Shown: one piece after another, positions 22,458 to 62,800 of the stretch
Layout: the number at the start of each line of letters is the position of its first letter
How positions within the stretch are numbered: position 1 is the stretch's first letter
Assembly (NCBI GenBank): GCA_030407005.1
Contig: JAUDYN010000001.1
Location: 248,001 to 312,000, forward strand
DNA from: Desarmillaria ectypa
Lineage: Eukaryota; Basidiomycota; Agaricomycetes; Agaricales; Physalacriaceae
Direction: 5' to 3'
Length of the DNA stretch: 64,000 nucleotides
Notes under the pieces: model-generated
What the model saw: the letters and a program-made list of their open reading frames with translations, nothing else
What the model was told of the DNA's origin: nothing
Database searches by the model: none
Position numbers and translations under genes: made by a program

Positions 22458-23725
22458 TCAAATTCCCAGCACTGTGTCAAAAACCACTTTCGCTTTCAGT
22501 AGGACTTTTGTTTCCGAAACAGCGACCTCAGAGTCCTTTGGTTTGCCCTCATCCAAAAGTTTCTCGTCTGGCTTCAACCTAATATTAATGGACACCGCTA
22601 CCTTTCCATCAGAAGCGACGGCATTCGGACTCTGATTGATGTCGACCATCATGTTTGGGTCGTATGTGTCATCGTGCACTGGCATGAAAAGGTGTAAATC
22701 CTGGGCCATGGCGCCCTCCATGATTGCTCTATCAACCCCGATGGTGAGCTCGACAAGCTCCCTGATGCGATCACCGAACATCCTCTCGATGCTTTCCTTG
22801 GGTGCGAACCATTCCATCCTGCGACACAGAGGACGTCCAGGAGATTATCTATGAGCTCTCGAAGAGCAAACTTTCGAGTGGCATCGGATTGAGGACCGTA
22901 TTTGGTTATCTCCCTTGTCGCGGCTCGCCATTGGGCCACCGTCTCAAGAGAATCTAAGGGAATGCAAATGTAAGCAAATAATATATAAACATATCCCTGA
23001 AAGTACCCACTGATTTCTCGGAACTTCTTGTAAGATGTGGCGAAAAGCTTGTGCTCCTTGTTGGATATACTTCAGCGCTGAATGAGCCATTGACATGTCT
23101 TTGCCAGCACAGCTTGAATAATTGTCTGGACAATGATACTCCGCATGCCCTTGGTGATTCTTCCCATGAGAAGCTCGGTAACCCGTCGACCCAGAATACC
23201 TTACACGTTCTTCGCTGCACCATGTAGGTCTGCCAACCCTTCCAACGTCTTCGCGTATGCATGCTTGAACCGCAATTTATCCGACATCAAAGCCGCCAAC
23301 TGCATCATATCGCAATTCAAGGACTCCAGCATATCCCTTATTTCCATGCACGAGTACGCATCGGTTTTGATGTGGATTCGACGGCTATCATGTAGAGCAT
23401 TATCCGCCTATAATGCCAGCTCCCGTTTCTTTGACCTCAGGGCATTCAAGGGATCGTCCGATTCCTCGAGTTCGGAAGATAACGAGGAGACTGTGTTTCT
23501 CCCGGCGCTATGATTGCTCCCAGAAGAAAGCGTGGTGGATTGGGCATGGTCAGAGTTCTGATTGCCAAACGAAGGCACGGTAGAGCTTTTAACTCTGGCG
23601 GCTTTCAATTTCCTCTTGCCGTTAGCGTTCGATTTCTTCTCGAGCGTGACACCATTTAGGTGCTTTTCACGATCTGGAACTGTCTGGCTTCGAGTTACAG
23701 GTCTGAGATCGGTGTTCGTCTGCAT
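22458..23725 (-). pseudogene. Coiled-coil family copy A, pseudogene
   Basis: The minus strand from the ATG at 23725 can be followed through the whole family architecture. A basic, Ser-rich N-terminus (LRPVTRSQTVPDREKHLNG) is followed by ALMSDKLRF, the AQWRAATRE equivalent of the GRW motif, VLCVAGW, LTIGVDRAIMEG and LLKAKVVFDTVL. The frame is broken by in-frame TAG (23408-23410), TAA (23201-23203) and TGA (23072-23074), all in one reading frame. A single-base frameshift follows the AGW motif near 22805-22820. The last intron sits at the family position (about 22955-23007). Its start faces the Hsp70-like copy H1, 471 bp away. The lesions indicate an inactive copy, although the 3' 120 codons remain open. 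Confidence 0.75.
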
Positions 23726-24196
23726 TTTGAACTGAAAATTTCCGTTAATTAAATCGATGTGTCTCGGTATACAGATATTACCCACTCTGCACCCTGTGAG
23801 GTGTACGGTAGCTAGAGGACGCTATTGGTTTGTAAGTAGGAAGTCGAGTCATCAGATAACCGGCTTTCCTTGGATGTTTTCGGTTCCAAAATGTCTAGAA
23901 TGTTTTTTTTAACATGACGGCCACCTTCTATTGAATCAGAACATACGAGAGTTGAGTAATACTTCTTCCTTACCATAATATTATCAGAGCGAAGGCCGAT
24001 GTTTGGCCATTTCTGGACATGGCATATCCTTCGGCGAACGCCAGCGTGCTTCTTTGCTTCTGCCACCGATTGAACATTGTGGCTTCGCGACTCTTCTATG
24101 TTTCCATGGCATTCTTTTTATTTAATGCTCTCCGCGGGACAGATACCCTGGTCTTTGAACATGATCCCTCTCATCTCTTGTCTGGTGTAGTAATTC

Positions 24197-26544
24197 ATGA
24201 CGACCACCCCTACTCAGCGAAAACCTTATGGCGGCCGTCACCGAAAGTTGGTGCTATCCTTTGATCTGGGAACGACATTCAGCGGCATCTCGTACAGGTA
24301 CTGCTCCAGGGAATTTTTATTATTCCCGCAACTAATGACGGCCTACTTGAAGTATACTTGATCTTGGAGTCGTTCCAGAGATAAACGGAGTAATAACGTA
24401 CGTTCCTGATACTGGCATTTGCTGTTTAGGCTGACAGTGGTCTCCCAAGACTCCCTTTTCAAGACGCTGGTAACCATGCCAAGATACCAACGACCATGTA
24501 TTATGATGCTTTCGGGAAACTTAGAGCTGTAGGCGCGGAGACGCAGGAGACGCTTGCGGAAGAAGCCGCCCAAGTAGAAGGGTGGACGAAATACTGCAGG
24601 CGAGTATAAGAAAGCCTGAAAAAATGCGATAATATTTTGACGCTTTCACCTTGCAGATTCAAATTGCATCTTCGGCCTCAAACAGCGTCGGCATACGTTC
24701 AACAACTTTCTCCTTTAAAAGAGATTGTGACACTCTTTGCCGACTTCTATGCATACTTATACGCTTGTACCAAGTCCTTCGTGCAGGAAACTCATCACAT
24801 CTCGTCCTCCGAATGGTCCAGTATGGAAAGCAGCATTCACTTTGTCCTCGCACACCCGAACGGTTGGGAGGGCGAACATCAAAATAAGATGAGAGATGCC
24901 ATGATAATTGCTGGACTTATCAGCAATGGTGAACAAGATCATTCGCGCATGTCTTTCGTCACCGAAGGCGAGGCCAGTCTTCACTTTTGTTTAAGCAAAG
25001 GTCTCTTACGTATTCCAGGGCTGGTATGTCCGAAAACAACCGGTGTTTCGAGGAAATTGCTATCCTCCATTGTGAGTTATTGAGTTGGAATTCCAGCAGT
25101 TCCTCATCTTTTGTGCAGGTCAATTATCAGGTTCCATGTTCGTTACTAGACAAGCACATATTTATCTTCGAGGTGATTCTTGGTGTGGCTACTATTGGGG
25201 GTGTCTAATCTTTGTGCGTCTAGATAAATTAAAAGGAACAGCATACACCGAAATGGCCGATATCATTGCTGATTGTTTCGACAAGACAACGAAGTTGCGA
25301 TTCAGGAATGCTAAGGAGCCGGCATACATCCAGTTTGGGACCATTCAAGACAATGATCCTGCTCTAGGTATCCGTGGAGGAAGACTTGCATTTCCCGGGT
25401 GTGATTGTAATTGGATTCAGCTTGTCATTCTTGTGATAATAGTATCATAGGAGCACTGTTGCTGGATTTTTCGAGCCGTCTTTAAATGATATTATTCAAA
25501 TCGTTGACTATCAGCGTTTGACGTCGTCCAAACACATATCTGTTCGTACTCCTCTATCTTTTAATACTATTAGGACCTGACTTTATACCCGCCAGGCCGT
25601 ATTCCTCGTCGGAGGATTCGCTGCTAGCAACTTTATCTATGCTAAATTACAGGCACACCCGCAATCCGTTGATATTCAACTTTCTCGTCACGATAGCCAC
25701 GTTTCTGTCCCTGTCGCTTGTTATCATCTACATAATTAGTTGATGCTTCTTCTCTAGCAATAAGGCTGTCGCTGATGGTGCCGTCTCCTTCTATATTGAC
25801 CGTGCGGTAGATGCCAGGATGTCGAAGCATGACTATGGAGGGAAAGAGTTCACTTCCTCCGAAAGATCGATGCCTGAGCATCGACGTCGTTCAGATAAGG
25901 CGTATATATCCGCCAACGGCGAGTTGTCTTTGGGAGATCAATTCGATTCTATCCTTCCGAAAGTAACGTCACGCTTTGGGTAACCAATATTTTCTATGCT
26001 AATAAAATCTGACAGGGTGTTCTAGTATATGAGGCAACGGAGTTCCGGCACACCTATCATATGTACTCAGAGGATCTGGAGGATCTGGCGTCCATATCGG
26101 ATGATTTAATTTGTTATCGAGGCTCGAAAAAGGATCCGCGCTGGATGAACACCGATGAAGGTTCGTCAGACGTCTATCCTTTGGCATATACGTTGGCATC
26201 AGGCTTATACGAATCCTACAGCTATGTACAAAATACTTTACACAATTACAGCCAATACTCAGCAGGCAGCGAAAACACTCAAACCTCAACGTGGACGAAA
26301 TGGAAGAACTTTCTACAAGCTTGACTACGATGTTGTCTTACTTTTCGGTTTAACGGAGCTGCAGGCATGTGTCCTGGAAGTACGGGGTATGTATCTTTAT
26401 CGTGACCTCTTGTTCCTGCATTTGTCTCAGCTATTACAGGGGAAAGAGAAAAGGCAAGATGATTTTCAATTTCACTCCGAGTTCATCCAATCTCACCACT
26501 GTGGCAGAAGTCCCGCTCGTATTATTTATGCCCAGCACCTCTGA
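24197..26544 (+). pseudogene. HSPA12-like Hsp70 copy H1, lacking the phosphate-2 loop
   Basis: The first exons are 24197-24297, 24353-24397, 24450-24599 and one from 24657. The order matches the intact copies: LSFDLGTTFSGISY (phosphate 1), IPTTMYYD, FADFYAYLY, FVTEGEASLHFC, AVFLVGGFAASNF (adenosine motif), NKAVADGAVSFY, DYDVVLLFGLTELQA and SPARIIY before the stop at 26542-26544. Just after FVTEGEASLHFC, at about 25017-25025, the roughly 85 coding bases for the VDAGGGTVD loop seen in H2 and H4 are missing and the frame shifts. The rest of the gene is undamaged. Intron 3 has a GC donor (AG|GCGAGT). By family knowledge the missing loop contacts ATP phosphates, so a product would not cycle. The gene is head-to-head with coiled-coil copy A. 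An assembly or sequencing error at the lesion is the alternative. Confidence 0.7.
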
Positions 26545-26977: not shown

Positions 26978-29396
26978 TCACATGATGCGGCCATATACGA
27001 CTCGCGCTGGACCCCTAGATGATGCAGTATGAACTACCGGTACCGCGATTCATAGGCAGGAAATGATCGCTTACCTCTTCTCTACGCCCTATGAAAATGT
27101 GAGCCTCCTGGAAGCAGATGTTGGTGGTCTGGACTTACGTTCTCCTTCCAGCTTAATTGTGCCTTGAGTTCTGTTCTTCCGAACAAAAGAACGATATCAA
27201 AAGTAAGCGCGAAGTATGATCTTCCATCCGGGCTTCGGCGAAGCTTGAGGGACTTCGCCACTTCAGAAGTGTCGGTGACGATAGTGCAAAAAAGCGATTA
27301 TGCATCTGGTATAATGCTGAGATAGCAGCTGAAACCAACCCGTACTACACAAACCTGGTTCCTCATCTATTCAAAGGGGCTCTGCAAATCTGATACCGCG
27401 GTAACATTTTATATCTGTTCTTATGTAATGCACATCGGCCAAATGGATTGATTTTCGGGAGAACGGGGGACGGAATTTTGTCGTTTCCATGACTTGCGTG
27501 TCCTGTGTACCAGCGCTAAAAGACTAGAAAGAGTAGGAAGGGTGATAACTTACCTTGGGAAGTATGATGGTAAATTGGCCCAGAATAGAAAGCACTCCAG
27601 CTCCATCAACGAAAGTTGTGTCTCTACGAGCGTAATGTTCAGCGTCGGATGGGCTATAATTCGTGTATACCGGACTTCCATACTAATATCTGGACACACG
27701 AGCAGCCACGACGTGGTCCAGATAGAATGACAGAGCACCATCAGCAACAGCTTTGTTCCTGTTGAGACAGAAGATATCAACATCAACCAGAAGGGACCGG
27801 GGAGGGAATACTCACACATGACTATCTGGCCCGGAACATTGTATTCTGAGCGGTTCCAGATGTTTTTTCAGCTTGAAAAATAGCCAACCGCTTGCGGATC
27901 GTGAGCATATGAGACGGCGTTAGAGAACCTTTACCGGCTTATGGCTTTGGCTCGTTGGTTATCAATGACTCAAATAATAGACGCTATTTATGGCTCAAAG
28001 AAGCTGGCGACCTCGAATCTATTCAGCGTCAAGCGAAAGGTTAGTACACGGAAGCCCCGAGAATCAACGCGTACCCTGCCAACTTCAACTGTCCAGAGCG
28101 AATGTCCAGCTTTGGATCTCTGTCCTTCATGGTGCCTAATTCGATATACGAGGCCTCTTCAATGGCTCTAAATCGAAGCTTCGTAGTCGCATCAAAACAT
28201 TCTCCTATGAGCTCGACTCGTCGGCAAACCGAGATCCTGCGAACTTTTCTGCAGTAAAAATTATAAGTGCATGGTTACATAAATAATTGGCACGCATATA
28301 CCGGCCAAAAATAGCTTTGCGCGAGCGGTTACATAGACGGAACCGGTAAAGTTGCCTAAGTGGACAGATGAGACCGAAGAAGAAACAAAGCCAGTGGCAG
28401 ATAAAGAGAAACAGACAGGCAGGGGCTGAGATTTCTTCGAACTCAAAACTGTCAGTATTCGGTGACTGAATGCTTTAATCAGCGCTGATATCAACGGTTC
28501 CCCCGCCAGCATCGACAATCACGACACCTTCCTCATCCTACCAAGGATTTTAGGCTGTAGCGTCAAAAGTGGCTTACTTGTATATAGGATTCGAACCCCC
28601 TGGTTGATGCAGAAGTGAAGACTAGCCTCTCCTTCAGTGACGAAACGAACGCGCGAATGCCCGCCGTCGTCATCAGGAATTAATCCCGCATCAATAGCCG
28701 CCTCCCGCATCTTGCTTTGTTGGGATAGCTAAGAAAAAATTCGATACTGTCTTCTACTGATTTCCAAATCGAGGCGGCATTTTGATGTGTATCCAAGATG
28801 AAAGTCTTCGTACAGTCGAAGAGGTACGCATAGAAGTCAGCGAATGCGGCAACGACATCCATTCCATCCGGAAGAGAAAGAATTGCTTGGGTCATCTCAT
28901 TTGAAGCTGTGGAAGGAGGGCTGAGGCATAATTTGATCTGTTCATTTTGAAGGGAAGCGCTTAGAACTCTCTTAGATGGCGGTAGATGCACACTTACAGG
29001 GAAAATTTAAGCCAGCCATTGTCCTCCGCATCTTCAATCACATTTTGTTTTAGTGCTTCTGCACAAACGGCCTTGAGGTTTCCTTCCTGGTCGTAGTACA
29101 TGATGATAGGGATTTTGGCGGTCACCGCCGACATGCTCCTGTGACGGAAACCTGAAAGAAAAGTGCGCCATAGTATAAGAATAGTACAAGAATAGGTGAA
29201 GGAGATGAAGACCTTGTTGCGCCCTTGATTTCTGGTACTCGACCAGGGTCAAGAATACTACTCAGTAAGTCTCAACGAAGTCACAAAGAAAGATGGCCAT
29301 TTATCACCTGTATGACACCCCAGAGAATGTCGTGCCAAGATCCATGGCTATAACTAACTTCTTTTCTATGAAATTGTAAGGTTTTCTTCCAGGCAT
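26978..29396 (-). pseudogene. HSPA12-like Hsp70 copy H3, pseudogene
   Basis: From the ATG at 29396 the minus strand follows the Hsp70-like order: VIAMDLGTTFSGVSY, ILDPGRVPEIKGATR, FADFYAYLFDCTKTFI, FVTEGEASLHFCINQG, VVIVDAGGGTVDIS, ECFDATTKLRF, NKAVADGALSFYLDH, LTFDIVLLFGRTEL, and GPARVVYGRIM before the stop at 26978-26980. Lesions include a one-base insertion near 29105 after GGD and a deletion of the NGWEG segment with frame change near 28715. There is a frame break just after VDIS and there are several stops in the nucleotide-binding-domain tail and after FFEP. All family introns can still be placed. The gene is divergent from coiled-coil copy B. Confidence 0.8.
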
Positions 29397-29874: not shown

Positions 29875-31131
29875 TTGCGAATCGAGACCGGCGAGGAAAC
29901 CGCTATAGATAGGATAGAAACGGCCGTCAACGATGTGGATGAATCGCACGCGATGGATTCTCAGCCACTTCATGCGACGAACAGGGGCATACTGGAGGAA
30001 GATGAACAAAGAAGAAATGCCAACAGGGACAAGCTGAAGCTGGAGACACGAGCGAGAAAGAAGGGAGAGAGAGAAAGAGACGCAGCACTATGAGAATTGT
30101 CACGTTCTCAGGCCAACTTGAGCCATCAAACATCCGAAATATGTGCGCTTCATAACCTCATCAGAACCTTGAAGCATACCCAGCTAGAAGACGCGACGGA
30201 GATATAATAGCTGTGCATGCGGAATAAGGCCCTAGAACAAGAACTTCAAGGCGTTGGTACGAAGCTTCACGGGCGGGAACAACGCCAAGTAGAATAATTA
30301 CTACTCGCGATGCGGGCACAGGAGCTTCATGACACGGAAACATTCTTGACGAAAGCTGATCTGTTCTCTGGCGCGGAAGTGAAGGTGATGGTCCAGGGTT
30401 TTAATACCGAGGTCCTGCAATTGGCTGCCGATATGATAGACACGCTGCAATTCGAAGACAATGCCATGGCGGTCGATGGAGATCAGGCGCCAACGGAGCA
30501 ACGTCTTGCAATTGACAGTGGTATGATACAGCTGTTGCAGGCTCCAGGCGACCCTGATATGCATGCCATCGTTGTCCAGGTTCCGCTGCAGGGCGTAATT
30601 ACTCGACTCTGCAGACGATTCATTTCTGAGTGGTCCAGGCACTCTTCCACGGACAAATCTGATCCATTACTGAGATCTAATACAGATGCATACAACCCTG
30701 CCATAGAAGGTAGATGGAGATTAATGACCCGCGAGAAAAGCAAGTACAGCGTAGTATCAGAAACGGAAGAGAGCTTCTATTCTCGCGTCATTGAGGTGGA
30801 GTTGGATGTGTTGCTTGTTGCTGAGCGGCCGCCTGCAGACACCAAGGGTACTCTCATACAGACTTTCAGCAAACGCGTTTCTGCGATCGTGAAGGCGGCG
30901 ATGAAACTGGATCGGGCTATGGGTGAAAGCATCACGTCTCAAGATCTAGTAGTGTATGGCGCACACTTCGACGATACTTTTGACTCTGACACAATGGTTG
31001 ATGCATATGGGAACCAGAAGGAGGACGGTAAAGCCGTGGCATGTACATGTGAGCTTGGGCTTCAAGTCTCCGGCGGGAACAATATTTTGTTGAAGACTGG
31101 TGTCGTACTGTACTCTACATTTCTAGCATAA
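29875..31131 (+). pseudogene. Coiled-coil family copy B, pseudogene with four nonsense codons and no last intron
   Basis: One reading frame runs from about 29875 to the stop at 31129-31131. It contains a charged coiled-coil region followed by MRAQELHDTETFLTKADL, FNTEVLQLAADMIDTL, IEGRWRLMTRE, LDRAMGESITSQDL, CTCELGLQ and LLKTGVVLYSTFL. These match copies C, E and G in order and spacing. The frame is interrupted at 30091 (TGA), 30205 (TAA), 30208 (TAG) and 30295 (TAA). From the ATG at 30310 it is open for 273 codons, so a truncated product is possible. The intron found just before the GRW motif in all other copies is absent without a gap in the protein. It is divergent from H3. Confidence 0.7.
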
Positions 31132-31470: not shown

Positions 31471-33312
31471 ATGAACATCTTTGTCGCATACTACGAAGCG
31501 CTCTTGCCATACAGTCCCGCCTTCGTCATTCGACTTGCTATGTCCATGGCAGGAATTGTATCCTCATTTCGTCGTGGCGTCAATGGCATGGCCAAGACCA
31601 TCTGGGGTAGCTCGCCGGATGAGTCGAGGAAAGGCCATCCTCGTCCTCGTATGCGCCCACCTCAAGAGTCGATGCCCAGTAGCACCGCCCAAGCACAGGA
31701 GACCAAGGACCTTCACCATCAGCCGCCGGTGAAAACCGATGCAGAGACCAAAATCGAAAACCGAACTTCACCTTCGACGAATATCCGCCCGAGCGTTCAA
31801 CGTCGGACTCAGACAGCAGAAATGTCGGTTAAAGAATCTGTACGAACGGAGCCAAAGGCAGCCGAGGTGAGTCAAAATTCAGGCCTAAAGGGAAGATCGT
31901 AAATATTAATCTCATGATTATTCAGCGAAGTCTTTACTCAGATGCTGTAAAAAAGACGGCTACAGACAAGAAACTCGAGGAAAAGAATGCTCGTATAACC
32001 CGGGAGCAGAAACCGGCGGAATCAGAGAATTTTCCGAAGATGAACAGGGCGAGCGCTGAAAATAGTCAGCTAAGCAGTCGGGCCGTGGAAGCTGAGAAGA
32101 AATATGCACTCGCTGAAAAAGAGCTTGTGAAAGCCAACGAGAAGAATGAGACGGAGCGGAAGAAGGTTGTGGAGCTACAACAAGAAATAACGCGGCTTCA
32201 GCAGGAGAGTGCCGAGAGGATGAAGAGTTTAGAGACGCAGCTACAATCGGTGATAAAGCAAAGCGATATACGGAAACTAGAAGTCGAGCGGGTTAACAAA
32301 GAGCTAGAGAAAGTGCGTGAGTTGCGAAAGGAAGAGCACGCTTTATTGGATCTTCGTATGCGGGAGCTGCAGGATGCTCGGGCGTATCTGACCACGGAAG
32401 ACGCGATGTCGGGAGAGGAAATCAAAGGGATGACGGAGGCGCTCAATACCGAAATTTACCAAGTCGCAGCCTTTATGGCGGATACACTAGATTTTGATTG
32501 GACGCTTTTGGGGGATGAACAGACTCAGGCGGCAGCGGCGCGTTGTGTCGGGGAGCACCTGGTAAGAGCGTTATCCGGCGGGGCACCAAGGGATGATTCG
32601 GAGGAGGAAACAAGACATCTAGCAACACTGGCTGCAATCCAAGCCTCCCTCGTACAATCTTGCTCCACCGTGATCAATGCCTGGGCATTGTCTCAAGAAG
32701 TCAGCGGCCATTTCGCCCATCTTTATATGAATATTCGAAGGACGTGTAAGAGTTTGTCCCTTCACCCTCGATTGGAGATTAATGGCTTTCTTTTTAGGCA
32801 CGCCAGCAGTTGCTGGCCGCTGGAGAGCCATGACACGAGCCGGGTGCAAATACCTCGGATCCGATATGGAGGTGGAGGAACAGCTGACCGGAGTCCTCTT
32901 GAGAAACCTGATTCCTGTCTTGGTCGTCGCCGGGTGGAAGCTGTCCTCAGTCGTGCAGATAGAAAATGCAATAGGTATCTTGGGCCAGGAATTCGGAACA
33001 AGAATGATACAGGTGGCGAAGAAGCTAGTGCGTTTGGATAGGGCCATGGGAGAAGGAGTTATCTCCAAGGACGCCGCGCTAGGATGGGTTCCTGGGGGAG
33101 CACCTTTCGATCTTAATGTCATGGAAAATGCCTTTGGTAAAAGCACAGGCATTTCTGCGGAAGATTTTGTCTTGTCGACGTGCGACCTTGGACTGGTATT
33201 GTCGCAGGTTATCAGGAATCAAGAGGGGGCAGGGTCTAGTATAGAGGTGGAGAGTCAAATTTTGCTGAAACCCAAGGTCGTGCTTTACAGTGCACTTTTC
33301 GAGCACAAATGA
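31471..33312 (+). CDS. Coiled-coil family copy C, 576 aa
   Basis: Exons 31471-31866, 31926-32745 and 32798-33312 give 577 codons including the stop. The N-terminus (MNIFVAYYEALLPYSPAFVI) carries a hydrophobic/amphipathic stretch of about 45 residues and may associate with a membrane. A Ser/Pro/Thr-rich linker follows, then a long coiled coil (about residues 150-300, rich in Glu/Lys with heptad leucines). The conserved C-terminal half has MRELQDARAYL, LNTEIYQVAAFMADTL, VAGRWRAMTRAG, LIPVLVVAGW, LDRAMGEGVISKD, STCDLGL and LLKPKVVLYSALF. An upstream in-frame ATG at 31288 would add 61 residues. I do not recognise the family; it is shared by seven loci in this window. It is a solo copy with no facing Hsp70 gene. 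Confidence 0.75.
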
Positions 33313-34318: not shown

Positions 34319-35697
34319 TCAATGGACTTCTTCCGCCAGGATCGTATCCGCCAAGCCTGATCTCAGTATGATTTTCGGCTTCACTAATACTCTTTTCTCC
34401 CACTTCTCTCCCTTCTTCTCCATTCTCATCAACCCAAGATCCGTCGTGCAAAGAACGTTCTCCGTACTATCCTTTGATGCACTCCCAAAAGTATCCTCCA
34501 TCACATTTGCATCGAACGGCGTTTCGGGCACGAGATACAACGGCATCATTTCACATGAAGTGATCCCTTGGCCGATGACCCGGTTCAGCTGCATCGCATG
34601 CTCAACCACGGCAGATGCGTGTTCTGCGAACTGGGTGGCCATGGTCTCGCTGACTTCAGACGTCGCGGATTCCAAACCAGCAATGATAAGGATGTTGACC
34701 AAGGTCTCCATCACTACGCTTAGCAGTTGCCGTTGACTATCGGGGGCCTCCCTGAAGGCTTGAAGCGCGTATCTACGCGTCAGAGCGCGCCAGCGTCCCG
34801 CAATAGCTTGATCTTCTGTAGAACAAACCATTTCTCATTAGAGGCGGTCATCAGAAGTAGTCGACACGGCGTACCTGATTCTTGGATGATCGCATACAAA
34901 CTACTCAGCATTTGCTCCTCCTCTCTCCCTTCGAAGTACCACGACGTGACAATCCAATCCACATACGCGCACATCGCGGCTTGAAACGCGGCTTGTATGA
35001 GGATCTGGTCGTCATGGTGCAGCGTCGACTTCAGAAGCTCTGTCATGCGCGGTCCTAGTATCTCGATGACATGGTCGTATGCAACCACAGCCTCGCTCGA
35101 CTCTTCGACTTTCTTCTCGCCAAACTTGAACGCTTCGGCCACTGTAGCAGCCGTCTGGAAAATCTCGGCGTTCAAGGCGTCGATCATGCTGATGACATCA
35201 GCTCCAGAGGATTGGTCCGCCCTGTCGAGGTATACCTGTGCTGCCCTCAACTCTTCCGTCCGTGTTCTCAATAGCAATCTCGTCTGTTCGTGTGCCAACG
35301 ACACTTTTCCCACCTCGTCCCTAGCCAGTTTCGCCGCCGCCGTCTGCGCTTTCAACTGTTGATCCAAAATGTGATTCTGATTCCGCGCCTGCTGAAGTTC
35401 ATGCTCGGTATCAGTCAACCGCTGCTTGAGCACGTCTGAACTTCGCGTGAGGCTAGAAACGAAGGATTTGGTATTCTTGATCTCTGCATTCACATCTGAC
35501 AAAGATTTCTGTAAGGTGCGAATGGTAGCGTCTTTCTTTTCTCCTTCGGTCGTAAGGATGTGGTTCGATCGTTCGAGCTGGGCTTTAGTTCGTCGGCATC
35601 GCGTGATGACAGTGAAGCAGGATGCGGAAATGGCGACAATACCGAGTCCGCAGAGCACAGCAGATGTCGTGGAGCGAGGGTCATGAGAGGTCATCAT
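34319..35697 (-). CDS. Coiled-coil family copy D, membrane-anchored, 439 aa
   Basis: Exons 34875-35697 and 34319-34815 join in phase 1 across a 59-nt intron and total 440 codons. Residues 10-32 (SAVLCGLGIVAISASCF...) form a hydrophobic segment followed by basic RCRRTK, consistent with one membrane anchor and a cytosolic tail. Residues 35-165 are a coiled coil. The conserved part has TEELRAAQVYLDRADQSSG, LNAEIFQTAATVAEAF, AIAGRWRALT, LVNILIIAGL, LNRVIGQGITSCEM, CTTDLGL and LVKPKIILRSGL. It most resembles copy F. Its start is 356 bp from that of the intact Hsp70-like gene H2, on the opposite strand, and an ACGTCA array lies between them. Confidence 0.8.
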
Positions 35698-35931
35698 AAG
35701 TTAGGGTGGTTGGACGAGGAGAAGAAAAATTAGCATTAGCTTGCCATGAGGCAGGAACGTGTTGGGCTGCCGCACCCTTCTCCGGTAGGATTTCATGACT
35801 CAGAGTTCAATGAACGTGTTCACCTACCCGCTTCACTGTCGAACTTCATGTTCAACACTGGATATTAGGTTCTGGTGTTTTCGATTCATGTGTCGAGCAG
35901 TGATGCAGTGATATCCGAAAATATCTGTCAC

Positions 35932-35965
35932 CCACGTCACCACGTCACCACGTCACCACGTCAAC
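35932..35965. promoter_or_regulatory. Tandem array of four ACGTCA (CRE-like) sites between copy D and H2
   Basis: A 9-bp unit CCACGTCAC is repeated almost perfectly four times in the 356-bp divergent promoter. ACGTCA/TGACGT is the core recognised by bZIP factors of the CREB/ATF type. It lies 89 bp from the H2 start and 235 bp from the copy D start, so it could act on both genes. Confidence 0.55.
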
Positions 35966-36053
35966 CACCTCTCCCTTTGTTTCGTGAAAGAAGAATGGCG
36001 ATCATTCAGAGCCTACAAAACCGACGACCTTTTGGTCCTCACTCCCTTCCCAG

Positions 36054-38483
36054 ATGCAAATCCCCATTATGACTGTACGCAATAGATACCAAGGAACCCA
36101 CCGAAAGCTCATCATCGCCTTCGACATAGGGACGACATTTTCTGGCGCCTCGTACGCCATCCTTGACCCTGGCCTCGTGCCAGAGGTACGGGGTGTGACA
36201 AGGTGTGCTTGGGTCCCACGATGTCGGACGGCTAATAGCTTATCCATGTCACTAGGTTTCCTGCCCAGCAAAGAGTCGGTGGCGACTCAAAGATTCCTAG
36301 TATCATATATTATGACAAGGCTGGCGCTGTGCGTGCCGTTGGTGCTGAGGCCACGCAGGAGGCGTTTCTCGAGGAAGCCGAAGACAACGAATTTATCAAG
36401 GTTGAATGGTCAGTATTGCGTGCATACGCCAGAAGTAGATTTTTAATGAAAGTCATTATAGGTTCAAGCTCCACCTGCGGCCTAAGACCCTGGCGGCGTC
36501 CCATATCACCGATGCAGACATTCCGCCGCTTCCAAGAGGGAAGAAAGGAATCGATGTCCTATCCGATTTCCTGAGGTACCTCTTCGAGTGTACTCGCACC
36601 TATATTGTAGAAGCTAATCCTTCTGGGGCGACGTTCTGGGAGTCTGTGAAAGACAACGTCGAATTCGTATTGACTCACCCGAATGGATGGGAAGGACCGC
36701 AGCAGGCTATTATGAGAAGAGCGGCAGTCGTTGCTGGCCTCATTCCGGACGCTTCTTACGGACAGGCGCGACTACAATTCGTCACGGAAGGCGAGGCGAG
36801 CCTCCATTTCTGCATAAACAAAGGAGTTTTGGGCAACCTACAGGTCAGTTTATTTCTTCGTCCTGTCATTCTTTATCGGTGCTCATCCGTTGTACTAGCG
36901 AGGGGACGGTATTATTATTGTCGATGCTGGAGGCGGTACAGTTGACCTCAGTGCTTACGGAAAGACCTCGGAATCCAACACCTTCGAAGAAATTGCGGCC
37001 ACCCAATGTTTGTCTGTCCACCTGCTGTCCTAACGTCTTTTACCTTATTCTTCACAGGTCGTCTACAAGGGTCTGTTTTCGTGGGCCGACGCGCAAGAGC
37101 CTACCTCGAAGGTGAGAGGACATCATCACTGTCATTGATGTGCTCACAGCGCTGGTAGATGAATTGGCCGAATCGAAATTCAAGGGCGAAGAGGACATCA
37201 ATCAAATTGCTGGTGTTTTCGACAAAACGACTAAACTCGGATTCCGCAGTGCATCTGAGCCGCAGTTCATACGCTTCGGCAGTGCTCGGGATAAGGATCT
37301 TAGTGTTGCTATAAGGAATGGGCAAATGAAAATCGCCGGGTGCGTCTCATTGGACAGCAAGGTCGCTCTATCCTGACTTTTAATGCTCAGCGATGTCGTC
37401 GCCAAGTTTTTCGAGCCTTCAGTCACATCCATCATCGAAGCCGTAACAGATCAAATGAAAGAAGCTTCCCAGAACGTTTCTGTAGGCACGCTTTATCACT
37501 CCATTGGCACTTCTATCTTACCATTTGACAGACCATAGTTCTAGTGGGTGGTTTCGCTGCTAGCGACTGGCTTTTTTCCCAGCTGCAACAACAACTCGAA
37601 TCTCGTGGATTATCTATCTGTCGCCCGGATGGGCACGTGTAAGCATTTCTTATCGATGGCTGCTATCATGCCTTAAGATATCGTATAGAAACAAAGCTGT
37701 GGCCGATGGGGCGTTGTCATTCTATCTGGACCACTTCGTTTCCGCTCGAGTCTCTAACTTTACATACGGGATCGAATGTGTCTCAGATTTCCAACATTCC
37801 AAATCCGAGCACCTCGTGCGTGCATCGACAGTAATCCCTATGCCCTCAGGCCGGTCTGTGGTGCCTCATATGTTCAGTCCCATTTTGACGAAGGTGTGTT
37901 CTATTTAAATCGGGGACAGAATCGCACTAACCCACTACTTCTAGGGCACTCGTGTGCAGGAAGAGAAAGAGTTCCACCAGCGTTATTGGCAAGAAGGTTC
38001 ACACATCCGTTCGATGGAAAGCATTTACGTCGACCTCTTGTGTTATCGTGGACCGTCTCCGGCTCCTGATTGGATTGACCTTAACCCTCGTGAGTTTTAA
38101 TCATTTTGCCGACATTGACGTTCTCATCGTTTGGCAACTAGATATGTTTTCCACTCTTTGTACGGTAGAGGCCGACACGTCCGGTATAATGCAAGGCTTG
38201 AGTCTGGAGACGGGACGAGGTGGTCAACGCTTCTATACCCTCAAATTCGACGTCGTTCTCCTGTTTGGGCTGACGGAGCTCAAGGCACAGCTCCAGTGGG
38301 TCGAAAACGTGAGTCACCTCTAACGGGTCTTTTTTCTGTCATCTAATGACGTTCTCTGTTGAAGGGCGAAACAAAACGGTAAGTTTAGTTTCCTCGTATA
38401 TCATTGACGATGTTTTTCTGACAATATCCTGTGGAAGGTGCCCTGCTGTTATTGTGTATGATGATGTCAAAGGGATGAACTAA
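36054..38483 (+). CDS. HSPA12-like Hsp70 copy H2, intact, 603 aa
   Basis: Thirteen exons: 36054-36202, 36256-36408, 36462-36843, 36899-37007, 37058-37111, 37150-37339, 37391-37481, 37532-37638, 37689-37893, 37945-38089, 38142-38308, 38365-38378, 38438-38483. They sum to 604 codons. It carries the Hsp70-type ATPase motifs: phosphate 1 FDIGTTFSG (from residue 23), phosphate 2 VDAGGGTVD (about 236-244) and adenosine motif LVGGFAAS (about 380). A GEASLHFC element sits where canonical Hsp70s have a conserved connecting segment. No canonical substrate-binding domain or EEVD tail is seen. The family is HSPA12-like and predicted to bind ATP; partners are unknown. The intron after the phosphate 1 exon, present in H1, H3 and H4, is absent here. 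The intron at 37112-37149 is only 38 nt. Head-to-head with copy D. Confidence 0.85.
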
Positions 38484-45570: not shown

Positions 45571-45577
45571 ATTTATA
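45571..45577 (-). promoter_or_regulatory. TATA box of the deleted fourth peroxidase
   Basis: The minus strand reads TATAAAT 41 bp before the ATG of the relic. The promoter survives although the gene body is lost. Confidence 0.5.
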
Positions 45578-47439: not shown

Positions 47440-48320
47440 GGCCTAGGACTGAGCGAGGCTGTTCTGTATTTATTATCGCAGTCGGAAGCTGCGAAGGAGG
47501 TAGAATGGAGCGATGGCTTATTTGATCAAGGCTGGGTTACCAAGCCGCTTGTGTTACGGCCTTGGACTGCGGGGGATAGTCATCACCGTCAATGACCATC
47601 GGGGCCGCGACCTGACTGGAAGCTTGGCTAACATACTTATGCCCTTACCTAACCTTGAGCTATTCGATGTTCTAAGAATATAGGAGGCACAAGTCAAGCC
47701 TTAGAACAGGGTTTGTGTGCGAGACAGTGACCGAGTGATAGATCACACTATTTCTTCCTGTTTCCCCAACTCGCTTCATCAAAAATTCAAAGCGCAGGCC
47801 ACGACATATTCTCAGTGTTGTTGACTCAAAATTTTAATTTCATACTTGCTTGCTTCTTATTCAAAGTGCTTCTTTATCGTAAATAAGACGGAGCTCTGAG
47901 TTTTTTCTCTTTCTCCCAAGAGGCATCATGTCACCGTGCGACCGGCCTCAAACTGGAAGCATCTTCACTCAGAGGCGTCAGAAAACCGACCAACCTTACA
48001 TGATCATGCACGCGTCGGCTAACATTACAAATGTGTACACCGTTCCTTGTGATCCTCGTAAGGTCCACACGCGCACGTCCCAAGCCAAAAGTACTATAAA
48101 GAAGACATAGTACTTCATTACCCTAATAGTAAAGAAAAAAGACCGAAGAAACTCTCCCTTGTGATTACAGGGCTCGACAACTCCCATGCAGCTTTTTCGC
48201 CAACACAGAGAACACACGCCAGGCACCTGAGGACCTAGGCGCTCGCAATATAGTACTAAACATCCCATATTATTTTCACCCTACCGCTGGCAAACATAGA
48301 CATGTTTCAGAAAATGTTTC
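47440..48320. other. Intergenic; an open stretch after the oxidase pseudogene
   Basis: Immediately after the oxidase stop, the same frame stays open for about 50 codons (GLSEAVLYLLSQSEAAKEVE...) to about 47598. I do not recognise it. The remainder holds no supported gene. Confidence 0.35.
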
Positions 48321-50154
48321 CTATGACTGCGAAATTTCTGATCAGCAACTCGCACATCGAATATCACACAAATTCCACTTACACAAGTACCAGACAGATT
48401 GTCAGAGAATTTGAACGAATCTGCGTAGTCTCCCACTGTCACATCAAAGGTGGTCGACCACGAATAGATTGGGAGACTGAAATGACCCGCATATAGAGTG
48501 AAGCCATCATACCCATCCGAGTTCCAGACCTCCATCGCAGAGGACTCGACAGCTAACGAAGGGACGGGTATACCAATCCGCTGCGTCCTGACCACAACAT
48601 CAAAGGAAGGGTTCGTCAGCGACGCTTCATTCCGGACCTGCACCAGTGTCATTCCCGAGAAACATTGAAATATAGACAAGGGCACTTACTGCTGCAACCG
48701 CCGTGAGGTTCCAGTTGCCATTCACATCTGTCTCTTGAACAAGACACGAATGCGAATTCAGAAAAATGATATTGTCTTGTACGGGATACCCGGAACCTTC
48801 GTTATCGTACGTCTCCTCTCCACCAGAGGATGGAGTAACAGATATATTGAAGGAGGAGATGCCGTTCGGTACCGCCGCTGAAAACGTGTAGAACTATAGT
48901 GCCCTATTAGCCATGTGTATGGAATACAGGAATACAGAGATGTACCTTGAACTCTGCGTCGTAACCATATCCAGTTAAGTGTATTTCTGCGGTAGAGATT
49001 GTGTTATTCGAAGGAATGTTCCCATCGTGATCAACATAATGCAGCTGAACTGCAAGGTCTGTGTCGTTTCGGTCCGATATCAGGACACGAATTTCTCCAG
49101 TGAACGTGAGCGTCCCGCTCGAGTCGAACGTCAACTGAATCGCTACGGGCTTAATAGGAATTGGGTCGATGACCTCCGACAATGTGACAGAAGATGGGAC
49201 GACCTCAATCATCCGCTGGAGTATAGCCTGGCAAGTGTTTGAAAACGATTCAGCATCTGACATTGACTGCATTGTTGCATTGCCGTCCGCTGAGAACACG
49301 AGCAGGTCGGAATTGGAACCTTCCGGTCCAACGACTAGAGGATCCTCGGTAGTGCCGTCAAGGTAGTCGGTGACGACTGCAGAGTCGAAAGAACTGAAAG
49401 TACTATCGAGGTGGACGAAATTTGTAGAACTACTGTTTCCAGTAATGTCAGGAAAGTCGACGCCGTGTACACCACCCAGAGCTAAACGAACATTAGATGA
49501 TGCTGGCTTCTGGAGAGGAAATAGAGACTGACTATGTCCACACGCCACCATTTGTATCATCTCCATTGTGTTGAAACCCGCGGTCGCGAACTGAGTGACG
49601 ATGGTATCCAAATCGTCGGTGGGTTCGGGAACTCCTGAAGCGCCGGCACCGGTAGCATCGATACGGCCTCCCCTCATAGTGAGACGAGGACCACCACAAG
49701 TCCTGACAGCAGCATACACCGCGAGCGCAAAAAGGTCGGCCATGGAGGTTTGTATGTTGTAAAAACCGCCCATCCAATTCATAGTCCCGTTGAACGCTGC
49801 TCCCTTATTCTCTGGTCGGTCCATCTCAAACATGATTGATGCATCCATTCCACCAGTTCCGTCAGCCGCATTGTGAGTTATCATGTCATGGAATGCAGTC
49901 CGGACCTACAGGCCAATAAAAACGAGTTTCGGTATGAGAGAAATTGGTAAACGCACCCATTCCGCTGCATTTTGCCTCCCTTCTCCGAAGTTTGAAAAAC
50001 CGCATGGTGTTACTCCGTCAATAATGCCATATCGACGGTACCCTGCCTGTTGATACATAACGCCTTCCAGATAATCGTTGTTCGAGGGCCATGTGTACGC
50101 GTACAACCCAGTTAAAAAAGTCAAGAAGACCAGCGAATGTCCGATGGTGGACAT
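48321..50154 (-). CDS. Secreted heme peroxidase P3, 523 aa
   Basis: Exons from the 5' end: 49957-50154, 49533-49905, 48946-49481, 48690-48893, 48383-48637, 48321-48326. Lengths match P1 and P2 exon for exon. It has a signal peptide (MSTIGHSLVFLTFLTGLYAY), distal VRTAFHDM and proximal GHTLGGVHG assembled across an intron with a GTCAGT donor. The tail ends in GTC followed by the Ser-stop microexon. Its exon 3 is nearly identical to that of P1 over a few hundred bases, while the flanking introns differ. A TATA-like TATAAT lies at 50193-50198. Confidence 0.87.
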
Positions 50155-50192
50155 ACTGTTGTAATGGTGAATGCACAAGACTATTGCAAAGC

Positions 50193-50198
50193 ATTATA
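50193..50198 (-). promoter_or_regulatory. TATA-like box of peroxidase P3
   Basis: The minus strand reads TATAAT 39 bp before the ATG, in the promoter block shared with P1, P2 and the relic. Confidence 0.5.
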
Positions 50199-50419
50199 AG
50201 GCCGGGGACGGTGGCTGTGGCGCATAGTGAATGACAGAATGACACTTCGGTAGAATGTGAACGCCGTACGTGTAGTGAAGCCCAAGACCATCAGCGGGAG
50301 AATAAGCCCGTCGTGGAAACGGCTCCTGGGATTTCGAAGACCATTGCAGCCAATCTAAGGTCTCTGAATGGTCAAGTGAGCCCAAGGGCCGCCTTCAATG
50401 CCAATGAAGTTCTGCCAAG

Positions 50420-54994: not shown

Positions 54995-56382
54995 ATGTCA
55001 GACAGCCAAGGAGTGCTTGCTACTCACAATCACGACGCCCCGGGAAGCCCCCAAAAAATTAATACGGTTGACATGCCAGGCGAGGTATCCTCGTACTGGG
55101 AAAATGCGATTCGTATTGATGGGTGGGATCCAATATCAAAACAAAATAGTCGACAAAATTGCTCCTCAGAGGGACTTGAAGATCTAGCTGAAAGCGACGA
55201 AGAATTTGTAGTGGTTTCGAGAGATGACGAGGTAGGATATCGCATATTATACTAGATTTAATTCTTGTTTGACTCCGGGCCATAGAGTGTACCCAAGGAA
55301 GAAACGAAACGCGCAAAAACACCGAGTAGAGAGTGTGATTCGGATAAGGAAGCTGAAAATTTACGTCTCGAGAACTCGGAATTGAGGAAAGATCCCCTGA
55401 TAGCCCAAGAACAGCTCAAAGCTGAGCTCAATTCTCGGAATTTGGAGCTGAAGAGTTTGCAGTACCTTTTGGATGTCAGGACGAGGGAACTACAGGTCGC
55501 CCGGACGTACTTGGATACCGTTGATTTGGTATCTGGGGAAGACATCGTGTCAATGGCAGAGGCGTTGAACGCAGAGATCTTCCAGGTAGCCGCATACATG
55601 GCGGATTCGTCAATGTTTAGTGCGAAGTGTAGACTCGCAGAGACGGAGGAAATAACCCCTTGGCTCGGGGCTGACTTGGTCGAGATTTTGCGGTCGGGGA
55701 AGGACGCCGAAGGGCGAGCTCATGCTGTCCAAGTTGGGCTTCAGGCGTCACTCGCTCGATCTTGTATGGCTACCATTGGGATGTGGCATCCCGATTCGAA
55801 GATTGATGAAAGTCTCCGTCAGCTGTATGCAAAAATTCAGAAAACTAGTGCGTCTATCGATATGTATAATATTATAGGATCTTACCTTCTGATACAGGTT
55901 TGGTATCCGTAGCAGCACGATGGCGTGTAATGACTCGTTCAAAGTCGAAGTACTCGACACAGGAGGAGGCTGAAAAGTCGTATATACCTTGGATGGTTAG
56001 GCGGGCGATTCTGGTGTTGCTCCTGGCCGGATGGGATTCAGATGGAACGAAGACCTGGGACGCATGTGTCGGCACTATCATGGAAAAATACGGAAGAAGG
56101 ATACGAGACGTCGTAAAGCTGATGATGAGGTTAGACAGGGCTATAAGTGAAAGCGTTGTCTCAAAAGACATCATCATCTGCATTGCAGCTAGCGGGAACC
56201 AGTACGACCCAGGGTCCATGGAGAACGCTGATGGACCTGATGAGAAAGTGCAGGCATCTGATCGTGTTATTTGCACGTCCGATCTTGGGCTGAAGGTGAC
56301 AGAGGCATCCGATGATGGAACCTCAGAGGGAGATACTTATTTACTGAAGCCGAAGGTAGTATTACGTTCTTCATTGACATAA
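54995..56382 (+). CDS. Coiled-coil family copy E, 427 aa
   Basis: Exons 54995-55231, 55286-55847 and 55898-56382 total 428 codons. The N-terminal 80 residues are acidic (EGLEDLAESDEEFVVVS) without a membrane segment. A coiled coil spans about residues 95-150. The conserved part follows: VRTRELQVARTYLDTVDLVS, LNAEIFQVAAYMADSSMF, LASLARSCMATIGMW, then after the phase-1 intron VAARWRVMTRSKSKY, VLLLAGW, LDRAISESVVSKDI, CTSDLGL and LLKPKVVLRSSL at the C-terminus. It stands in tandem with copy F, 279 bp apart, and has no facing Hsp70 gene. Function unknown. Confidence 0.82.
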
Positions 56383-56661: not shown

Positions 56662-58039
56662 ATGTCCTTCAGCTATGAAGACATTCCATCCGACGTGCCA
56701 TATTCCTTGTGGTCGGTGTTAGCTCCCGCCGGCGGAGCGATAATCTTGTCATGCCTGGCACTGTATCGGTACAGATATGTCGCATCCACGCTCGAAGAAA
56801 ACCGGAAGGAGTTGTCTGTGTTGAGATCGGCACTGGCGCAGAGAGACGCAGAGGTTTTATCATTGCGCAAGGCGCTTTCCGAACCAGTGCAACAGGTGAG
56901 AGGCATTTCATGTGCAAAGGGACTAGAGAAACCGATACTCAGTTTTCAGGCACAGAAAGCACCCTCACGGAAGGATGGTACTGAAGTGCAGGTGCTAAAA
57001 CGGCGCATTTCCGATCTGAACAAAGAACTAGAGGAATTCCGTGTTCACAACCGTGCATTGACCCTTGACGTTCAGGCGGGAAGGGAAGAACTGCGTGGAC
57101 TCGGGGTAAAGCTCCAGCAGAGCGACAAGTTGTCGAGGGCACGAGCGGAGGAGTTAAGAGTTGCTCAGGTGTATTTGAGCACGGCGGACCAGTTCTCTGG
57201 TGTCGAGATCATCCAAGCTGTGGAGGCACTGAACGAAGAGATCTCTGGAACGGCTGCGACACTTGCAGATGTCTACGAGCAAGCAGAGAGGGGTGCAGAA
57301 AATGCAGCAAGGGGTATCTCCTATAGACACGTTGCTGACGTCCTGGGGGATGCGATGGCGAGCTTCATCGAGTCCAATCCGCATTACGAAGTACTTCAGG
57401 TTGCGTTTAGTGCTGCTATTTGTGCGCACGTGGGGGAGATGATTATGTCGTGGCACATTGGGGGAGATACAGGCAAAGAACAGGGCTGGAACGAAGTATA
57501 TGGCCGCATACAGCAGTCAGGTAAGAGCAAATCTTCTTCAAAGTCGACGTCAGCTTAGCCTTTTTATAGAGAAGCAGGCTATTGCTGGAAGATGGCATGC
57601 TCTAACGCAGAAGGCTATAGCACCTCCATCCAAGCACGACGAGGCCGAAATAGAGACTATCCTGGAGGAAACGCTTGTTAGCATCCTCATTGTTGCTGGC
57701 TTTGATCCAGGTGACAGGAAAGTCGCAAAAAAGCTAGCGAGCTCATGCTTAGCCAGAAAAGTGGTGGAATTACGTTTGGGGACGCGGCAGGGTGTTACGT
57801 CGTGCGAGATGGAACTAATATATGTTGCGCCAGGCCTTCTATTCAATTCCGAGGTTATGGAGGACGCCTTGAGTCGGGGGGATTTCGAGCGGCAGGATAG
57901 TAAAATGCGAATATGTTCTACCACGGAACTGGGCCTTGCAGCAACTGAAAGCTGGGGAGAGGACAACAAAACAAGCTTAAAAATCTTGAAGAAAGCCAGG
58001 GTGGTCCTCCTGTCGGAGCTGAACGATATCGTGGCGTAG
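56662..58039 (+). CDS. Coiled-coil family copy F, membrane-anchored, 424 aa
   Basis: Exons 56662-56895, 56950-57520 and 57570-58039 total 425 codons. The first intron (54 nt, GTGAGA...TTTTCAG) is a multiple of three, so it would add 18 residues if retained. Residues 17-40 (LWSVLAPAGGAIILSCLALY) are a membrane segment. A coiled coil covers about 45-160. Conserved elements: AEELRVAQVYLSTADQFSG, LNEEISGTAATLADVYEQ, AIAGRWHALTQ, LVSILIVAGF, TRQGVTSCEM, STTELGL, KKARVVLLSEL. It groups with copy D by the membrane anchor, the AIAGRW motif and TSCEM. Confidence 0.82.
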
Positions 58040-58742: not shown

Positions 58743-60252
58743 TTAAATCCTAGGTATTATCTCTAACATCGTCGAGTAGAGGAGCACTTTTGGCTTTACG
58801 AGAATGGCCAGTGGCTTCGCCGAGTAATCATCCTCTTGCATCGACCGCGAAACCTTCAATCCTAGCTCGCAAGTGCAGAGAACGTGATCTGAATCCAGTA
58901 CCGCGTATTCTCCATCACCATTCTCCATCGTGTCTGGCACGAAGCTACTGCCCCTGCCGACGGAGAAAATCACGATATCCTCTGACACGATACCCTCGCC
59001 CATTCCCCTGTCCAGGTCTATGGCTAAATTGACGACTTTTTCTATCCTCTCTCCGTATTTCCCCCCCAAAAATGACGTACATGCGTCCCAGGTCGGGTCT
59101 GTACCGACGTCAGTCCATCCGGCAAAGATTAAGACAGTCGCCAGTTTCCTGACGATAACGTTTATCCATTCTTTCTTGACGTCGGGTAGGGATTCGTACT
59201 TCGACCCAGATCGAGACATTGCCCTCCACCTACCAGCGACGACCTGTGTATCTAGGATATGCTGTCAGTGCTCGCTATTTCCAATCTTGTACAACTGGCT
59301 CACTTGTCGCTTGGATCTTTGCATATAGACGTCTGAGATTCGCGTCCGTGCGTCTTTCTATGTGCCACATAGAGATAAAGTCTGCGCAAGTTTGAACCAA
59401 TGACGCTTGCATGGCGATCTGAACGACCTGAATGCGCGTCTCTTCATTTATTGGAGAACACAGCAGATCAATGATGTAGCTTCCAAACCAGCGCACGGCC
59501 TCCCCTCGAGCGGTCTCGAAATTGACCCTAGCGCCAAATGTCATGGAATCTGCTATGTATGCTGATACCTGGTACATCTCCGCATTTAAGGATTCGACCT
59601 TCGCGACGAGATCTTCACTGGAAAACATATCGCTTATCATCGAATAAGCATGCGCATCCTGCAATTCCTGCGTGCGTATATCCAAGAGACGGCGCTCGCC
59701 TCTGCGTACCGCTTGCTCCCGCTCCAAATCCGCGTGCAGCTGGATCAGTTCCTTGTCCCGAACGGCCATTTCTTGTTCCAATGAAACAATCCTTTGTTCA
59801 GCAAAGCTCAGCTCCTTTCGCAGCTCCTTCACCCTTTCATTGCGTATTGTTTCAGATGGCTTTTGATTGATCTAAGTTGTGTCAATGTCCATGGTGCCTT
59901 GTGCATGGGGGAACCTCACCGCAGTATCAATATAGTCCCTTTGTTTTTCCTCTCTCCTGCTGCTGGGATCAACTGCGTTCATCGTATGTGCTTGGTGCGA
60001 TGACTGCAAGGTATGCCCATGACCTGAATCCGCAGTAGGCTGCCACCCTCGATCAGCGTTGGTCTCGCCTGTAGCTTTTTTCCAAGATAGTCGCTGGCGC
60101 TGGCGATGCACTAGTGCTCCAGCCTTCCCAAGCATGCTCAAACGACTGCTCTGAGGTCCAGTTGGTGAACAGAAACAATCGATGTGACTGCAGAGGGCTA
60201 GCGGGTCACATTGGGAGCGTGTAATCCACATGTTTTCCTCTGAGGGCTGCAC
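58743..60252 (-). CDS. Coiled-coil family copy G, 469 aa
   Basis: Exons from the 5' end: 59920-60252, 59304-59871 and 58743-59251, totalling 470 codons. The N-terminal exon (MQPSEENMWITRSQCDPLAL) has Cys residues, no clear membrane segment, and a low-complexity Arg/Gln/Ser stretch. A coiled coil spans about residues 115-175. Conserved elements: IRTQELQDAHAYSMISDMFS, LNAEMYQVSAYIADSMTF, VVAGRWRAMSRSGSKY, VLIFAGW, LDRGMGEGIVSEDI, CTCELGL and LVKPKVLLYSTML. The last intron uses the CTAG acceptor at 59252-59253, which restores the family frame. The start is only 98 bp from that of the intact Hsp70-like gene H4 on the other strand. Confidence 0.8.
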
Positions 60253-60350
60253 ATTCCTTTCACCATATCACTGGATGTATGAATGATAGGGGTGCGAACG
60301 AGTGTTTATATTTCCTTGTGTATGTCCTTTTGACTACCTACGACACCACC
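60253..60350. promoter_or_regulatory. 98-bp bidirectional promoter between copy G and H4
   Basis: The two start codons are separated by 98 bp, so the two transcripts must share a promoter or have overlapping leaders. An AT-rich TTTATATTTCC stretch at 60304-60314 is the only TATA-like sequence. No ACGTCA array like that of the D/H2 gap is visible. Confidence 0.5.
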
Positions 60351-62800
60351 ATGAACACCCGGTTGCCCTACGCTGGCGACTCCAGGAAGCTGCTCTTGGC
60401 TTTCGACCTCGGAACGACTTACAGCGGGATCTCATACAGGTCAAGCTTTTGGCGTGCACGTTCAACATATTTCTGAGGACTTAGTTTATAGTGTACTCGA
60501 CCCGAGTATTCCCCCAACGATTCAGCCCGTAACCAGGTACAGTCTTTGGGTTCTTCAGGTACCATAAACCTAATGATGTTCAGATATCCTTCCCTTGAAG
60601 GCACTGGTAGCAATGCCAAAATCCCGACCGTTATCTGCTACGATCAGAATGGCCAGATGAGGGCGGCCGGTGCTGAAGCGATGAGCGAAAATGTCAATGA
60701 CAAAATCCAAGAGGAGGGATGGGTCAGATGCGAAAAGTAGGCTGTACTTCTATCAGTATGCTGGTCTTATAATGAACTTTCTGTTACTCAGGTTCAAACT
60801 GCACCTCCGCCCTCCTGCCAAGGATGCCAAGTCAGACAACATCAACCAAGCCATTTCATCGCTTCCGCCTGGCAAGGACGTCCTTATGCTTTTTGCTGAT
60901 TTCTATGCATATCTCTTTCAGTGTGCCAAGACTTTCATACAGCAGACGCATCCGAGCGGTGTGACATTTTGGTCCTCGATCGAGGATTCGATTGAGTTCA
61001 TCCTGAGCCATCCGAACGGATGGGAAGGAGGACAGCAAGAACAGATGCGCGAGGCTGTGGTTCAGGGCGGTCTCGTCAGTGATGACGCCAAGAACACGCG
61101 TGTACACTTTGTTACCGAAGGGGAAGCTAGTCTGCATTTTTGTATCCAGAAAGGTCTTTCATCACATGTCAAGGTGAGCACCGCATTCTTGCAGGTACAA
61201 TAGATCTAATACGTTGCTTTAAGGAGGGAGAAGGCATAATTATCGTCGACGCTGGAGGTGGAACTGTCGATATTAGTAGCTACACTAGCACCTCAACTGA
61301 AGGTGCTGGGAAATATTCGTTCCAGGAGATTGCCGCTCCATTTTGTAAGTCCTTGAATTTCTCTCTCTATCCAGCATTTACGACCTCATGTACAGGTGAC
61401 TTTACTGGATCTATTTTTGTCACGGAGCGCGCTCGTACTCACATTGATGGTAATGTCTGGCATACTTTTGCCTTTCTTTTTATTCATAACTTCACAGGAA
61501 AGTTGAAAGGCTCTAAATTTTACGATGACGTCGGCCATATCGTGGAATGCTTCGATAAGTCTACGAAGCTTCGTTTTAAAGACCCGGAAGAACCATCTTT
61601 CGTCAAGTTTGGGGGCCTCCGGGACAGGGACCCTATGCGTGATATTCGGTCTGGTCAGCTCAAACTAAAAGGGTGAGCGAACTATCAACGTGCTGGAGAG
61701 ACTTATCTTATATTCCATAGGACAGATGTTGCGACTTTCTTTGAACCATCGGTAACTTCTATCACTAATGCTATCGATGCCCAAAGAGCTGCATCGAAGA
61801 GGCCTGTTTCGGTGAGTGCGACGCTTTAAGGGGCCGTGCCAGATGCCCATCATGTCTTCTGAAGGCCGTTTTTCTCGTTGGTGGCTTTGCTGCGAGTGAT
61901 TGGCTCTTCCTAAAAATACAAAATCACACAAATATGCTTGGCCTGACCCTTGCTCGACCTGATAGTCATGTGTCAGTCTTTTCTTCCTTTGGCTCTGCCT
62001 GATTGTGCCCTAAAATCGGACCAACAGTAACAAAGCCGTTGCTGATGGTGCTGTCTCATTCCACCTGGATCATGCTGTTACCGCACGCATCTCTAAGTGC
62101 AATTACGGTGTACGAACGTACACTGGCTACGATCGTCTAGACGAAGAGCATGTTCGCCGTCGCGCAAAGATTTTTATAGACTCTTCTGGAACACGCTCTT
62201 TGGGTGGGCAATATAGTGTCATTCTCGCTAAGGTAATGTCTCTGTTTTTTATGAGCTGGCCGTTGCCCTTATATGTCCTTTAGGACGTCCTTGTCTCTGA
62301 AGAGACGGAATTCCGCAAGTCATATTGCATGCTTGCACGATCCTTGTCCGACTTGGACACCATCACAACCCCAATTTGGCGTTATGGCGGGAAAAAGGAG
62401 GATCCAAAATGGATGGATGTTGATAAAGGTTTGTGGTATCCAAATCTTGCGACGCTACTCTCAATTCATCGTACAGACGATTACTCAGTGTATTGTTTTG
62501 TTACAGCTGATACTTCCATCGTGGCAAAGTCACTGGAGCCTCAGCGTTGCCCCGACGGGACTTACTACTATTTACTGAGTTTTGACGTTGTGATGTTGTT
62601 TGGTATGACGGAGCTGAAGGCACAGCTTGCGTGGATCGAAGACGTGAGTTACATAAACTTTGACTTTATACACGCTATTAACGATTCATGCTTCTTGTTT
62701 TAGGGCGAAGGGAAGAGGTATCGCTGTGCTCCTATTGATCAATTCGTTAGGATGCCTGACTATTTCTTACAGGGGTCCTGCTCAGGTCATATACGATTAA
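60351..62800 (+). CDS. HSPA12-like Hsp70 copy H4, intact, 591 aa
   Basis: Fourteen exons: 60351-60439, 60492-60536, 60584-60736, 60792-61173, 61224-61344, 61396-61449, 61498-61672, 61721-61811, 61865-61971, 62028-62232, 62284-62428, 62477-62643, 62704-62717, 62773-62800, totalling 592 codons. Eight of these exons have exactly the same length as in H2 (153, 382, 54, 91, 107, 205, 145 and 167 nt), as does the 14-nt microexon. Motifs: FDLGTTYSG (from residue 18), VDAGGGTVD (about 231), FLVGGFAASDW (about 373), VTEGEASLHFC, FDVVMLFGMTELKAQL and a GPAQVIYD C-terminus. No EEVD tail and no canonical substrate-binding domain. It is a predicted cytosolic ATPase-type chaperone relative of HSPA12; the client is unknown. 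Head-to-head with copy G. Confidence 0.87.

Follow-up and report, generated by a model that had tools for sequence, protein, structure and literature searches.

Divergent Hsp70/coiled-coil gene pairs in the window

We analysed a stretch of 64,000 nucleotides of Desarmillaria ectypa (positions 248,001 to 312,000 of JAUDYN010000001.1, here contig C1 of the 40.6-Mb assembly), which we call the window. An all-against-all comparison of its open frames recovered four Hsp70-like genes, H1 to H4, together with seven members, A to G, of a single coiled-coil (CC) family, in the following order: A(-) H1(+) H3(-) B(+) C(+) D(-) H2(+), three peroxidase genes (-), E(+) F(+) G(-) H4(+). Each of the four Hsp70 genes has a CC gene opposite to it, head-to-head. 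This layout, four times over, was the starting point of the initial annotation, and both the open-frame comparison and the spliced models confirm it at the same coordinates. When order and strand were shuffled 400,000 times, all four Hsp70 genes faced a CC gene in 0.2% of cases (0.1% with strands fixed), a statistic which assumes independent genes, as tandem duplicates are not, and which omits other possible genes of the region.

Gene models come from our own splice-aware alignment and were compared with NCBI models where present. Two pairs are intact. In the first, D (34319..35697, -) faces H2 (36069..38468, +) across 371 bp between start codons (35698..36068); all 593 residues of P0037 align to H2 without stop or frameshift. 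In the second, G (58743..60231, -) and H4 (60351..62800, +) are separated by 119 bp between start codons (60232..60350). Exon-joined G, which begins with ATG, is 100% identical to NCBI model P0001, that is DFS33DRAFT_1279347 of D. ectypa; our alignment read through one stop in G where the NCBI model places an intron. Our model of H4 joins 14 exons into 581 aa and is free of stops, and NCBI model P0014 is 98% identical to it and 10 residues longer. The two other pairs are decayed. A (22467..23728, -), opposite H1 (24197..26541, +), has two frameshifts in its spliced alignment and gives weak genome matches here; H1 likewise has two frameshifts. H3 (26987..29396, -, ATG at 29396) carries 6 stops and 7 frameshifts, and in B (30298..31128, +), opposite to it, the C-terminal part is open while the upstream coiled-coil part contains stops. 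The remaining CC genes are C (31471..33309, +; intact, splicing to NCBI model P0009), which is opposite no Hsp70, E (55286..56379, +), whose N-terminal exon lies outside the model, and F (56662..58039, +; intact, splicing to NCBI model P0134). Clean spliced models were thus obtained for C, D, F and G, those of C, F and G being consistent with the NCBI ones, and A is broken.

A fifth pair at an unlinked site

Genome searches, whose counts are all lower bounds, were made with H4 and with G, K and D; they found relatives in the window and on contig C28. There the Hsp70 gene H5 and the CC gene K again point away from each other, with 391 bp separating their start codons, and both genes are free of stops and frameshifts. 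K is 16-24% identical to the CC genes of the window, and H5 is 38-46% identical to H1-H4 (its last exons were cut off in that comparison). The pair lies in C28:1655001-1665000, flanked by two other gene frames, which we take to encode pyruvate dehydrogenase E1-alpha and a 26S proteasome ATPase. C32 carries another HSPA12-like gene, which gave one exon match in the H4 search and is 34% identical to a clade member (170/497); the CC searches had no match anywhere on that contig, and we use this gene as a negative control of one. On C23 there is a sub-threshold CC-like match (E 0.014) with internal stops. Every gene found of this HSPA12-like Hsp70 branch has a CC neighbour, which makes five pairs at two unlinked loci. 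A scan of the five divergent regions for heat-shock elements and other promoter motifs gave no pattern in common.

Shared fate and matching trees

In D/H2, G/H4 and K/H5 neither partner is broken; in A/H1 and B/H3 both are. With two of the five genes per side broken at random, such full agreement would arise by chance in 1 of 10 cases. The distance matrices of the Hsp70 and CC partners are correlated (r = 0.92; 2 of 120 permutations were as good, the observed one included), the decay of A, H1, B and H3 inflating some of the distances. The two trees are split alike. H1, H3 and H4 fall within one 37-row Hsp70 clade (support 99) with H2 and H5 outside, in a tree of 50 hand-chosen rows, 44 of them from the best 120 listed, in which the long branches of H5 and of the outgroup meet. 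On the CC side A, B and G form a clade without D and K (94/93), and D, F, K and a Suillus protein group together (92/96); this tree is midpoint-rooted, includes 10 of the 15 CC proteins from elsewhere, has supports below the starred level and contains K and A as long branches. The partners indeed come from both CC branches, as was first noted, but they are not a random mix, since the CC branch follows the Hsp70 clade. A simple duplication of a block B-C-D-H2 into E-F-G-H4 is disfavoured, because C and F, and D and G (two of the three equal positions), belong to different CC branches.

H1, H3 and H4 have their own orthologues in Armillaria/Desarmillaria; H1, for instance, has four relatives in other species which are 74-76% identical. 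Each of the three has its own counterpart in the tree among the D. tabescens proteins, a 410,178-base contig being given for all of these counterparts, and hence the copies look older than the split of D. ectypa from these species. Two pairs are lost in D. ectypa, and divergence and decay seem to have affected both partners jointly. The fifth unlinked pair, the shared fate and the matching tree split together bear out the earlier proposal that the pair is inherited as a unit, and make it probable that the two proteins work together, as had also been suggested.

Outside D. ectypa, co-occurrence on a contig is weak evidence for the pairing, because most contigs are large and partly syntenic. Nine of 18 CC proteins (relatives are undercounted, so that this number is a lower bound) lie on a contig of the same size as that of a listed Hsp70. 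Three of them are the window's own, which leaves 6 of 15 from elsewhere, the other 9 being without a contig match to an Hsp70 among the best 120 of 1232; 52 of these 120 were matched directly and the remainder compared by eye, equal size being taken as contig identity. The exception is a contig of 3,463 bases, a size given for P0015 as well as for P0136. Should the two genes lie on one and the same contig, they must be close neighbours, because H4 spans about 2.45 kb here. Seven listed Hsp70-12 proteins (among P0016-P0125) were seen on a same-sized contig per species (543,169 bases in A. solidipes, 410,178 in D. tabescens), where the group may be larger than in D. ectypa.

Nature of the two proteins

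H4 has 1232 homologues at E <= 1e-20. Several of the best 120 (48-53% identity) are named "Heat shock 70 kDa protein 12A/12B" by their source, and the named homologues among these 120 are presumably all Agaricomycetes. The predicted structure of H4 has the fold of the Hsp70 nucleotide-binding domain followed by a substrate-binding beta domain, without lid. What we take to be the phosphate-1, phosphate-2 and adenosine motifs are present in H2, H4 and H5; the phosphate-2 motif is lost in H1 and the adenosine motif broken in H3. The canonical Hsp70 family PF00012 gave no match to H4 over its curated cut-off, matched only 1 of 74 relatives at E <= 0.01, and none of the 28 matches of the Hsp70 Pfam genome search lay at H1-H5. 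The Hsp70 alignment, built from 74 of the best 120 listed proteins, found no relative in the viral contigs searched.

In the CC proteins scanned, no Pfam domain rose above its cut-off. In the predicted structure of G there is a long coiled coil and a disordered N-terminus, and in the alignment used for the fold (16 of 18 CC proteins) the invariant columns are mostly C-terminal to the coil. The family had been described as sometimes membrane-anchored: by hydropathy alone, only D and F are candidates for an N-terminal transmembrane segment.

Other features of the window

To the left of the cluster are frames with RasGEF and PH domains (5351-8020 and 10150-11124, +), a tRNA-Gly (2206-2280, -) and a second tRNA match of 133 bases, probably intron-containing (13959-14091, -). 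The three peroxidase genes (39809-41906, 43261-45798 and 48284-50290, -) are tandem relatives; the one scanned matches the Pfam heme peroxidase family (E 5e-19), and between the copies there are DNA repeats of 61-91% identity.

Interpretation of the pairing

The pairing is real, recurs at an unlinked site and is apparently old. We consider it most likely, with slightly more confidence than doubt, that it is an old co-inherited divergent pair encoding an HSPA12-like Hsp70 ATPase, which lacks the lid, and a coiled-coil cochaperone dedicated to it. The partners would be co-expressed from the short region between them and would bind each other, and the N-terminal anchors of D and F might fix some pairs to a membrane. 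The main rival is shared ancestry without partnership: an ancestral divergent pair would have been duplicated in its entirety, its genes then staying side by side because they share a promoter. We regard this as a real but distinctly smaller possibility. The pairs have a common ancestry, the cluster holds tandem copies and decayed genes, and a single duplication history could explain the matching trees; on the other hand, the unlinked pair keeps the arrangement with only 16-24% identity left in its CC protein, and the genome searches, whose counts are lower bounds, turned up no solitary member of this Hsp70 clade in D. ectypa. It is rather improbable that the Hsp70 folds or moves the CC protein as its dedicated client or scaffold, such as a filament or tether, and that the CC protein is no cochaperone. 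The long coiled coil and disordered N-terminus predicted for G and the hydrophobic N-termini of D and F would suit such a role, but invariant columns lying mostly beyond the coil fit a binding domain better. The rapid turnover of a conflict or recognition system had been suggested, and copies which are clustered, diverse and partly broken speak for it; CC would then be a sensor or guarded client and Hsp70 the ATPase switch. This reading is unsupported and now very unlikely: H1, H3 and H4 come from old lineages with relatives in other species, and the lack of Pfam domains in the CC proteins scanned takes further support from it.

Within the chaperone-cochaperone unit, we propose only tentatively, by analogy, that the CC protein is a nucleotide-exchange factor: its stalk would serve for dimerisation, and the C-terminal beta domain would open the nucleotide cleft of the Hsp70 as GrpE does. 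Somewhat more doubtful still is the idea that the CC proteins are GrpE-type factors, far-diverged or convergent, which work outside organelles, each copy being dedicated to the adjacent HSPA12-like Hsp70. If true, a private Hsp70/exchange-factor pair has been retained and multiplied as one unit in mushrooms. Those HSPA12 passages of a review (PMC13149161) that we consulted name no exchange factor for these proteins, and no such gene pair is described in the titles and abstracts listed by our literature searches. HSPA12-like proteins have many fungal relatives, a gene which adjoins them in all five cases found here is a direct handle on their role, and the pair is small enough for expression and assay.

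Comparison with known systems

In the predicted model of G the parts may follow each other as in GrpE, coiled-coil stalk, helices and C-terminal beta domain (architecture as outlined in the relevant part of PMC4753570), and the two have one short motif in common. The GrpE family PF01025 matched no CC gene in a genome search at E <= 10 and none of ten CC C-termini, and a whole-length profile comparison of CC with GrpE found nothing. The matches of the G model other than GrpE (ATP synthase, bestrophin, Vip3) were judged to be common helical arrangements. D. ectypa has one clear GrpE gene, on C12 and away from the cluster, presumably the mitochondrial one; a second match of the GrpE model, at C23:1350210-1350386, is sub-threshold (E 0.2). 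In its sections on these factors, PMC4753570 assigns GrpE to bacteria and to organelles of bacterial origin, and Hsp110/Grp170, HspBP1/Sil1 and BAG proteins to the cytosol and endoplasmic reticulum (ER). One would not expect to meet a GrpE-like factor outside organelles.

BAG, HspBP1/Sil1 and Hsp110 are likewise partners of eukaryotic Hsp70, cytosolic or in the ER according to the same sections (PMC4753570), but the CC proteins scanned have no such Pfam match. HSPA12-type (Hsp70-12) proteins resemble H4 in homology (48-53%) and, in the predicted structure, in having nucleotide-binding and substrate-binding beta domains and no lid; they differ in that H4 has no Pfam HSP70 match and is in fixed divergent pairing with a CC gene, undescribed in the literature found. 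In the dnaK-grpE operons of bacteria, too, the Hsp70 gene adjoins that of its exchange factor, dnaK being annotated beside grpE in 5 of 11 grpE regions from plasmid records; there the genes are on the same strand, whereas here they are divergent eukaryotic genes of other families.
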